The position numbers and the translations under genes are program-made. The notes beneath the pieces were generated by a model, which was not told the DNA's origin, made no database searches, and saw only the letters and a list, made by a program, of their open reading frames with translations. Positions 26,540 to 28,926 of a stretch of 38,075 nt of DNA are shown one piece after another. Source of the DNA: Polaromonas sp. Its GTDB lineage: Bacteria; Pseudomonadota; Gammaproteobacteria; Burkholderiales; Burkholderiaceae_C. Positions within the stretch are counted from its first letter, which is position 1, and each line of letters begins with the position of its first letter. The DNA is taken from contig PNNC01000082.1 in the NCBI GenBank assembly GCA_013824015.1, positions 1 through 38,075 of the forward strand. The letters are read 5' to 3'.

Positions 26540-27301
26540 ATGACATCAGGCGGCACAGGCAAAGTGGCATTGGTCACCGGCGCGGGCACCGGCATTGGCA
26601 AGGCGGTCGCGCTGGCGCTGCTGCGCGCGGACTACCGCGTGGTGCTGGTGGGGAGGCGTTCCGAACCGCTCAACGAGGTGGTGAAGGCCTCCGGCGCCGG
26701 CAAGCGGGCGCTGGCCGTGCCCTGTGATGTCAGCCAGCCCGACGCCGTGCGCGCCGCCTTCGACCTGGCGCAACAGACCTTTGGCCGGCTCGACCTGCTG
26801 TTCAACAACGCCGGTGTCGGCGCGCCGGCGGTGCCCATGGAAGAGCTGAGCTTCGAGCAGTGGCAGAACGTGGTCAACATCAACCTGACCGGCTCGTTTT
26901 TGTGCGCGCAGCAGGCGATCCGGCTGATGAAGGCCCAGTCGCCCCAAGGCGGCCGCATCATCAACAACGGCTCGATCTCGGCGCATGCGCCGCGCCCGAA
27001 TTCTGCGCCTTACACGGCGACCAAACACGCGATCACCGGCCTGACCAAATCGATCTCGCTGGACTGCCGCCAATACGACATCGCCTGCGGCCAGATCGAC
27101 ATCGGCAATGCCCAGACCGAACTCGCCGCGCGCATGGCCAAAGGTGTGCCGCAGGCCAACGGCCAGATCGCGATCGAACCGCTGATGGATGTGGAGCATG
27201 TGGCCGATGCGGTGGTGCACATGGCCGCGCTGCCGCTCGCGACGAATGTGCAGTTCATGACCATCATGGCGACGAAAATGCCGTTTGTGGGGCGAGGCTA
27301 G
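26540..27301 (+). CDS. Short-chain dehydrogenase/reductase
   Basis: A 253-residue classical SDR oxidoreductase. It has the cofactor motif [16 protein letters not shown] (about 12-27), LLFNNAGVG, the helix motif [20 protein letters not shown] and the catalytic Ser and Tyr-x3-Lys in [29 protein letters not shown] in VGRRSEPL after strand 2 suggests NADP preference. The substrate is not deducible. It is divergent from kynB and may share its regulation; whether it acts in tryptophan breakdown is unknown. Start [13 protein letters not shown] follows AAGAGG. Unlike most SDRs, the segment after the active site reads [16 protein letters not shown] (no PG motif), a known variant. Confidence 0.88.
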
Positions 27302-27318
27302 GCGCCTCGCGCTCTACC

Positions 27319-27783
27319 TGTCATCCCGGACTGGATCCGGGATCCATTTTTTCTGCTTCGAGCCTTTAGGCGTGCCTGCGCCGGTTGGACGGGGGTTGCC
27401 CGGCAGCAAGTAACTTTCTTTTGCGTCGCCAAAAGAAAGTCACCAAAGAAAAGGCGACCCGATGGTCTGGGTCCCTTCGCTTCGCTACGGGCAACCTGCG
27501 GTGCTCGGTAAAAGCGGGGTCGAGCTCGAACTCGCCTTCGGCTCAGACAATCGCTCGCCCTGATCCGCTTTGACCTGCGCTCCTCGGCCCAGCCCGACGG
27601 GTGGGGGAGAAAACCCATGCGGGGAAAAATCCGGAGTCCTTGAAGCGCGCAGCGCTTCAAGGACGGGAATCCCAACAGACTGTCATGTTTGCACGCGAGC
27701 GCAGCGCACGCGGCCACATGAAGCTCCCTTCTCTCGCCCAGCGGGGCGAGGGAAGGGCGGGGGGTTGGGAGTGGGGAGTTGAA
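27319..27783 (+). repeat. Composite non-coding repeat island, right copy
   Basis: Same order and orientation as the left island at 20206-20728. It has TCATCCCGGACTGGATC (27321-27337 region); an 11-bp hairpin ACTTTCTTTTG/CAAAAGAAAGT (27413-27423, 27430-27440); about 170 bases nearly identical to the left copy; a 13-bp hairpin with arms 27636-27648 and 27652-27664; and a 14-bp hairpin with arms 27726-27739 and 27744-27757, then the same G-rich tail. The spacer between the first motif and the rest is unrelated to that of the left copy, and the CTTCGACAGGCTCAGG repeat is absent. No gene is supported between 27302 and 27990 apart from the argF tail fragment. Confidence 0.85.
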
Positions 27784-27831
27784 ACTACTGCCCGAAGTGC
27801 ACCGGGGACAGAGCGTGATGCCGCTATGGAC

Positions 27832-27893
27832 TTATTCGACCTTGCCCAGCAACAAAAACTCCATGAGTGCCTTCTGCGCGTGCAATCTGTTTT
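27832..27893 (-). pseudogene. Displaced second copy of the argF 3' end
   Basis: Read on the minus strand this encodes NRLHAQKALMEFLLLGKVE and a stop, against NRLHAQKALMEFLLLGRVE in the real argF 98 bases away. The first 37 bases (27857-27893) are identical to 28016-28052. The last codons then differ at 8 bases that change only one residue (Arg to Lys). Homology stops abruptly upstream. It cannot be a gene: there is no start and no other ArgF sequence. It looks like a displaced gene end left by integration of an element into argF or by replacement of argF with a homologue. Confidence 0.85.
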
Positions 27894-27990
27894 GGCTATG
27901 ACACGCGGCTACCGCCGCTTCACGTGTGCTGCGCACACATGAGCCTGCGCCGAAACAGATGGTCGGCACTGACGTGCCGCGTGTCGAATG

Positions 27991-28926
27991 TTATTCGACC
28001 CGTCCGAGCAGAAGGAACTCCATGAGTGCCTTCTGCGCGTGCAATCTGTTTTCTGCCTCGTCCCACACCACCGACTGCGGCCCGTCGATGACCTCGGCTT
28101 CGACTTCTTCCCCGCGGTGCGCCGGCAGGCAGTGCATGAAGAGGGCGTCGGGTTTGGCGGCTTTCATCATCTCGCTGTCCACACACCAGTCGGCAAAGGC
28201 CTTTTTGCGCTCTTCGTTCTCGGCTTCGTAACCCATACTGGTCCAGACATCGGTGGTCACCAGGTCGGCGCCGGCGCAGGCCTGCATCGGGTCCCGGAAC
28301 ACCTGGTAGCTGTCGGCCGAACGGATGCCGGCCACCGACTGGTCCACCTCGTAGCCGGTGGGCGTGCTCAGGTGCACCTTGAATCCGAGGATCTCGCTGG
28401 CCTGCAGCCAGGTGTTGGCCATGTTGTTGCCGTCACCGACCCAGGCGACGGTTTTGCCCTTGATGCTGCCGCGGTGTTCGATGTAGGTGAAGATGTCGGC
28501 CAGGATCTGGCAGGGGTGGAATTCGTTGGTCAGGCCGTTGATGACCGGCACGCGCGAGTGTTCGGCAAACAGCTCGATCTTGGTCTGCTCGTAGGTGCGG
28601 ATCATCACCAGGTCGACCATCCGGCTGATCACCTTGGCGCTGTCCTCGATCGGCTCGGCGCGGCCGAGCTGGCTGTCGCCGGTGGTCAGGTGCACGACGC
28701 TGCCGCCGAGCTGGTACATGCCGGCCTCGAAACTCACACGCGTGCGGGTCGAGGCTTTTTCAAAAATCATCGCCAGCGTGCGGTCCACCAGCGGCTGGTG
28801 TTTCTCGTAGGCCTTGAATTTTTTCTTGATCAGCGCCGCGCGTTCAAAAATGTAGGCGTACTCCGCGGCAGTGAAGTCGCTGAACTGCAGGTAGTGACGG
28901 ATGTCTGTGTTGGCACCGCTGCTCAT
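27991..28926 (-). CDS. argF: Ornithine carbamoyltransferase
   Basis: Transfers the carbamoyl group to ornithine to give citrulline in arginine synthesis; 311 residues, normal for the anabolic enzyme. The carbamoyl-phosphate motif FEKASTRTRVSFE, the NGLTNEFHPCQILAD ornithine/phosphate loop, WVGDGNNMANTW and the C-terminal HCLPAHRGEEV are all intact. The start MSSGANTDIRH overlaps the argD stop by 4 bases (ATGA), so the two are translationally coupled. Its last 9 codons differ from the displaced copy downstream almost only at synonymous sites, so this terminus may be of foreign origin. Confidence 0.97.
   Translation of the reverse strand: MSSGANTDIRHYLQFSDFTAAEYAYIFERAALIKKKFKAYEKHQPLVDRTLAMIFEKASTRTRVSFEAGMYQLGGSVVHLTTGDSQLGRAEPIEDSAKVISRMVDLVMIRTYEQTKIELFAEHSRVPVINGLTNEFHPCQILADIFTYIEHRGSIKGKTVAWVGDGNNMANTWLQASEILGFKVHLSTPTGYEVDQSVAGIRSADSYQVFRDPMQACAGADLVTTDVWTSMGYEAENEERKKAFADWCVDSEMMKAAKPDALFMHCLPAHRGEEVEAEVIDGPQSVVWDEAENRLHAQKALMEFLLLGRVE

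Follow-up and report, generated by a model that had tools for sequence, protein, structure and literature searches.

The window analysed here, a stretch of DNA of 38,075 nucleotides, carries on its minus strand the gene argF, for ornithine carbamoyltransferase, whose 3' end is present twice. Positions 27832-27893 and 27991-28052 form a direct repeat of 62 nt, 87% identical (54/62; 8 mismatches), with an exact portion of 37 nt inside the two argF ends (27857-27893 = 28016-28052). Chance cannot plausibly account for such an exact repeat within 3.3 kb (about 1e-16, by a rough estimate), and the doubled end with its 37 identical bases, reported in a first-pass annotation of the same DNA, is real. 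Equally borne out, by the repeat and by the translations, is its statement that the two copies differ at 8 bases toward the stop codon and yet encode the same residues, except for an Arg/Lys exchange. Both ends have their own stop codon on the minus strand (27832-27834 and 27991-27993). Homology is limited by the stop codon at one side and by the A preceding a motif MAA at the other, which is where the sharp end of homology described earlier on the far side is found. The spacer separating the two ends measures 97 nt (27894-27990), not the 98 first counted. It holds no gene, but it is not the mere gap between an old and a new end that it had been taken for, as it contains the conserved, folded body of an element. 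The features of the locus are as follows, all on the minus strand.

27991..28926, minus strand: working argF gene, from the list of open reading frames and the best matches of relatives' argF.
27893..28051, minus strand: inserted unit of 159 nt, from the alignment with 23 other argF units and a junction motif found in 40/65 site clusters.
28041..28051, minus strand: T1, left arm, starting with MAA (here AAA); pairs with T' in helix 1.
28008..28036, minus strand: H1, hairpin within recoded argF codons (helix 2), from folding and the tail comparison.
27983..27999, minus strand: H2, hairpin across the working stop codon (helix 3), from folding.
27965..27978, minus strand: H3, short hairpin past the stop codon (helix 4).
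27953..27963, minus strand: T', right arm (helix 1), from the flank-arm comparison over site clusters.
27893..27952, minus strand: conserved core of 60 nt, a three-way junction with a GNA/GNA internal loop, ending in GCCA; covariance model match at 27890-27956.
27920..27942, minus strand: P2, main core hairpin, from core covariation and the predicted consensus.
27905..27918, minus strand: P3, second core hairpin (missing in some relatives), from core covariation.
27832..27892, minus strand: displaced old argF 3' end with its own stop codon, from the repeat comparison; resembles empty relatives.

The unit is bounded by GA (28052-28053) on one side and MAA (27892 downwards) on the other, and the final 20 codons of the working argF fall within it. 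T' is the inverse complement of T1, with imperfect pairing, and also of the start of the old end.

The argF 3' ends were read at the best 30 argF loci (the window and 29 of the same genus) of 61 genomes. A second end was present in 3/30 loci (the window, L010 and L031) and absent in 27/30. Over the last 23 nt before the stop codon, agreement with three empty relatives is 21, 20 and 19 positions for the window's downstream end and 13, 14 and 15 positions for its working end, and the working end is identical (23/23) to those of two carriers, L010 and L163. Since the displaced end is like the empty relatives and the working end is not, the working gene received its terminal codons with the insert. 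This comparison, which the first-pass annotation had proposed as a check, gives an ancestral-like downstream end and a foreign working end. It upholds the suggestions that argF was an integration target and that the working gene has foreign terminal codons; the replacement of argF by a homologue, offered as an alternative, is not needed as an explanation. The 37 identical bases had been likened to an att core. In L010, however, the two copies already differ at the fourth base (AACA vs AACC), and in L163 both copies have two common changes relative to both window copies, so that the 37 identical bases are better read as the outcome of homogenization between the copies than as a crossover core.

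The tree built from 42 argF genes (15 carriers) requires at least four state changes for presence of the unit, of which well-supported branches force three; the row sister to the window is empty. Units of argF carriers measure 133-162 nt (32 units). Distances between units correlate with distances between genes (r=0.66, 22 argF carriers), indicating an old argF unit that has been passed on mostly by vertical inheritance and has at times been lost, with little sign of recent movement at this gene. Divergence in its non-coding part is close to that in the gene body (0.188 vs 0.175), so this part is constrained. Empty genes having the hairpin tail, such as L014, may reflect losses that left element codons behind, and L013 looks like a recombinant of two argF ends.

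The region folds better than shuffled sequence, as single-stranded DNA or as RNA (z -4.97 and -5.05). Covariation was counted on the window and 23 of the 32 units, leaving out six later array units together with L048, L147 and L323, which are without H2/H3 or the arm, and with two rows (L229 and L047) badly aligned in the core. Across these 24 argF units, 24 pairs change on both sides, against a shuffled mean of 12.7, and 109 cells have both-side changes, against 33 (0/500 shuffles as high in either case); a control with slid partners gave 3-6 pairs, the structure being drawn from the same sequences as tested and the slid control leaning towards structure. The whole fold is supported, in the order stem T1:T', H1 in the codons, H2 over the stop codon, H3 and core, with one pair of the T1:T' stem (8-94) unpaired in 14/24 units. 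T1 occurs in synonymous spellings (AAC AGG ATG, AAC AGA TTG, AAT CGA ATG and AAC AGA ATG), and T' mostly varies together with it. H1 forms with at least 11 of its 13 pairs in 24/26 element-borne tails, 14/22 displaced ends and 4/25 empty genes, one of these 'empty' rows (L089) being probably a carrier. The core was aligned separately, once duplicates, the tail of L061 and a spurious pattern match (L066, 770) had been removed; its 29 distinct sequences have 40 cells changed on both sides, against 9.9 in shuffled alignments (0/500 as high). The predicted consensus has GGC:GCC and GG:CC pairs surrounding the GNA/GNA internal loop, with an outer stem GTTX-CGGC...GCCA-X'AAC. Taken together, these data demonstrate that compensatory changes have maintained the argF unit as a single folded nucleic acid. 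Enclosed by its stem T1:T' is a copy of the argF tail that is synonymous and forms a hairpin. Because the tail inside this loop is synonymous, the gene stays whole.

With the spacer as query, matches were found in 70/399 genomes of the family, including the window's own, where the spacer matches itself alone at E <= 0.01 and the core model gives one match at E <= 1e-4. Genome searches with the core covariance model, run with stricter filters and a limited number of candidates scored per genome, gave matches in 107/299 family and 65/250 order (Burkholderiales) genomes. The class sample yielded 1/185, the own genome only, and the phylum sample 3/200, namely the window's genome again, another genome of the same family, and G1036, which belongs to the class; some order members within the phylum sample were without the core. 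This near confinement to the order indicates that the core is essentially a feature of Burkholderiales and that the background of the model is low. By eye, the G1036 copy is followed by sequence resembling that after ivd-type copies. A pattern scan of named genomes returned at least 119 stretches, and most of the 80 matches listed are labelled as Burkholderiales or other Betaproteobacteria groups, some being labelled just Proteobacteria, Pseudomonadota, Gammaproteobacteria or uncultured bacterium. Against Rfam 15, window positions 27300-28300 gave just a chance-level match elsewhere (E 4.5), and 15 core loci gave no match at E up to 0.1. Among plasmids, the whole repeat region gave one weak match (E 0.2) and a core three partial matches (E about 0.01), while the exact 21-nt repeat pattern had 0 matches in viral contigs. 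Twenty-seven phage records match the query L099 (from G474). All 20 matches listed fall outside the core, in the gene flank to its left or right, suggesting that this copy probably sits at or in a phage-like (prophage) tail gene.

With the cores masked, 210 instances fell into 65 site clusters. By names read from the sequence, cores lie at the gene ends of argF, proB, metK, ivd, ftsW/murG, glmS and gapA, and also at the 5' ends of ruvC and a thiolase gene, in RND pump genes, and at tRNA-Ser and tRNA-Leu. Tandem core arrays occur at many loci. In the RND genes, the reading frame is open through the core in 6/6 cases (L053, L055, L062, L064, L097 and L245), where the core reads as a recurrent peptide like AQAHVGAADVK. 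Arm statistics were taken with one row per cluster (65 of the 210 instances) and do not pick up arms below 10 nt. In 40/65 clusters (control 10.8%), the ten bases before the core recur as an inverse complement among the 200 preceding bases, such a 10-nt inverted arm being absent in the other 25/65, and the ten bases after the core have a direct repeat in the preceding 200 bases in 26/65 clusters (control 10.5%). The 40 arm-traced clusters, with arms of 9-20 and loops of 3-89 bases, share the left junction GA^MAA (G 88%, A 88%, then A 75%/C 20%, A 95%, A 90%; ^ marks the junction). At the right junction, GCCA is followed mostly by MAA. T' ends in TTK, complementary to MAA, the outer pairs being present in 48, 60 and 57 of the 65 clusters at positions 0-2. 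We conclude that members of the core family occur across Burkholderiales at many sites unrelated to one another, and that the junctions, where traceable, are GA^MAA and GCCA^MAA. At L118, L120 and L130, inspected by eye, cores lie beside a partial 5' half of tRNA-Ser or tRNA-Leu, with the complete tRNA gene downstream.

Core matches number 1-60 per genome in 25 genomes, with 60 in G259. Twenty-four of the 33 copies retrieved from G259 could be read, the others not fitting the pattern; of these, 15/24 begin with a stem-loop directly after GA (shuffled 0.75%), and their cores are alike. Many have one same short arm, two flank pairs are alike, and six units (L335, L338, L339, L343, L344 and L351) lie, by eye, in a recurring G-rich intergenic repeat (GGGGGCAGCGA...GTGAGCGTGGGGG), so the G259 copies are not all independent. 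This genome nevertheless gives the clearest sign that the spreading unit is the stem-loop plus core. In two other high-copy cases (L131 and L107, from G474 and G578), the core, by eye, lies inside a longer element, roughly 190 bp in length and bounded by terminal inverted repeats, as though a transposon-like MITE carried it.

No mobilizer was found. No Y1-like open frame was detected among 7,696 ORFs flanking the core loci searched, using a profile built from 27 IS200-type ORFs that may miss RAYTs, and G056 and G578, which have many copies, gave no PF01797 match at E <= 1e-5. Co-occurrence of Y1 with the core is weak (47/65 core-positive vs 103/185 core-negative genomes, p=0.019, ignoring kinship), and that of an integron integrase is strong (47/65 vs 54/185, p=1.6e-9, odds ratio 6.3, ignoring kinship), both counts treating three order samples as the same 250 genomes. 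The window's genome has an intact integron integrase above the family cut-off (L299:2793-3737, contig C43), with a few attC-like sites near it by our own pattern. The locus L061 (G398:C309), which has core copies, also has an integron-integrase-like open frame.

Two groups of known elements invite comparison. PMC6006769 describes IS200/IS605 elements whose cut sites are chosen by bases at the hairpin's 5' foot. For REP sequences, cutting is possible 5' or 3' of the hairpin according to PMC8266576, and GTAG is essential in E. coli (PMC8266576, PMC6006769). The argF unit resembles IS200/IS605 elements and their miniature derivatives in its folded hairpin with 5'-foot bases complementary to the flanking cut site, and also in the fixed short motif kept at the left (here GA^MAA, in 40 clusters) and in being a protein-less unit. 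It differs from them in that the argF family has one complex hairpin, not two ends, an arm of 5-20 nt where IS200/IS605 elements have a tetranucleotide guide, and a captured host gene tail. IS200-type elements also have a lagging-strand insertion bias, whereas the cores show no replication-strand bias (40 vs 43), as counted at 83 positions, mostly among the matches listed and with some genome sizes rounded. A sense-strand test based on the longest open frame proved unreliable at this G+C, calling argF antisense, and was left unused.

With REP sequences and their TnpAREP/RAYT enzymes, the family shares a bulged-base hairpin, an adjoining GNAG, and dispersed as well as tandem copies. Its foot is GNAG, mostly GCAG, against GT[AG]G in REP, it has a three-way junction, and no Y1 gene was found beside its cores in the 7,696 flanking ORFs. 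REP sequences are extragenic and usually present in more than 100 copies, whereas the family is often found at gene ends or inside genes, with at most 60 matches per genome (25 genomes). Rickettsia palindromic elements are small palindromes inserted in frame in protein genes. The family is like them, by description and not by sequence, in its in-frame insertion (6/6 RND frames open), and unlike them in its host bacteria. These elements have no known mobilizer, and they are not known to carry gene tails or target-complementary arms. No description of the hairpin family was found in the literature (open PubMed Central papers, by title and start of abstract). A small-hairpin family at many genes of one bacterial order thus apparently is undescribed, and we rate the unit as a new variant of small non-autonomous hairpin elements.

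On balance, and with moderate confidence, we favour the explanation that the argF insert is a non-autonomous hairpin element whose mode of action is like that of IS200/IS605 or REP hairpins; we would liken it to these without filing it as a member of either. Its mobile form, past or present, would be folded single-stranded DNA. An enzyme acting in trans would cut it behind GA on the left and behind GCCA on the right. T', which lies at the core's 5' foot, would act like a guide, pairing with MAA at both ends and with an empty target. The element would resemble IS200/IS605 ends and REP hairpins, but would combine a single hairpin with a longer arm complementary to the target and with captured gene tails. 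A bolder form of this explanation, which we advance tentatively as a possibility, is a protein-less homing element: a folded single-stranded DNA of about 70-160 nt that finds its target by a complementary arm of 5-20 nt, inserts at GA^MAA and holds a recoded tail of the target gene in its fold. Such an element would enter essential genes harmlessly, with units programmed per gene (argF, ftsW/murG, proB, metK, RND pumps, ivd, tRNAs). This guided, tail-carrying reading would be new in kind, if true.

Several alternatives were weighed. That the tail and core are instead a host-functional 3' structure, which acts on the mRNA (stability, termination) or binds a protein and whose copies spread by duplication and recombination, not by transposition, is a serious proposal that we find doubtful. 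It would fit the strong covariation across the whole argF unit, the mostly vertical inheritance at argF and the near-equal divergence of non-coding part and gene body (0.188 vs 0.175). However, the same core lies in frame inside RND genes and by tRNA genes and, as read from the sequence, in opposite orientation at 5' gene ends; most genus mates are without the unit at argF (27/30 loci) with no obvious harm, and a host function alone leaves GA^MAA unexplained. Replication slippage, with snap-back synthesis and template switching producing short copies, inverted as well as direct, in a tiny tandem inversion duplication and the core caught at the junction, would give the order observed, T1, inverted T', core and T2. 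We consider it unlikely, as the foreign end at argF is the working one, not the displaced one, and unrelated sites share one motif and one conserved core.

That the core is a degenerate attC, or an IntI substrate at secondary sites, appears very unlikely despite the strong co-occurrence with integron integrases (odds ratio 6.3) and the intact integrase in the window's genome. Integron attC sites are likewise folded imperfect hairpins of similar size that occur in tandem arrays, but the core lacks the outer boxes RYYYAAC/GTTRRRY, no cassettes were seen, the target motif is another one, and the attC-box sites near the integrase look different by our own pattern. Moreover, 18 integron-integrase regions contained only one clear core match, which lay about 6 kb away from the integrase gene and belongs to a genome that has 53 core copies, and the association may reflect shared ancestry. 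That the 3' end of argF holds the remnant of a tyrosine-integrase island, the type of event that the first-pass annotation had in mind, is highly improbable: a recoded gene end with a displaced old end is the classic footprint of such islands, but the 97 nt between the argF ends hold no integrase or other gene, unit size is similar in argF carriers (133-162 nt, 32 units), there is no conserved att core, and the family occurs at many other genes. A simple decayed tandem duplication of the argF end would account for the direct repeats and is scarcely credible, given that the differences are synonymous but for Arg/Lys and common to other carriers, and that the spacer is a conserved family.

The hairpin-element explanation accounts for gene-end duplications that need no integrase, and implies that protein-coding codons have been recoded to serve the fold of a mobile element. 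Where a unit sits at a gene end, the terminal codons would be element-derived and may persist after loss of the element. Such units might otherwise be taken for pseudogenes, att sites or odd protein insertions during annotation. The natural series of target-matched arms would provide material to test long-guide programming of single-stranded DNA elements. Two more inverted repeats, at 27410-27443 and 27636-27664 (arms of 14 and 13 nt), lie in the long gap downstream of argF.
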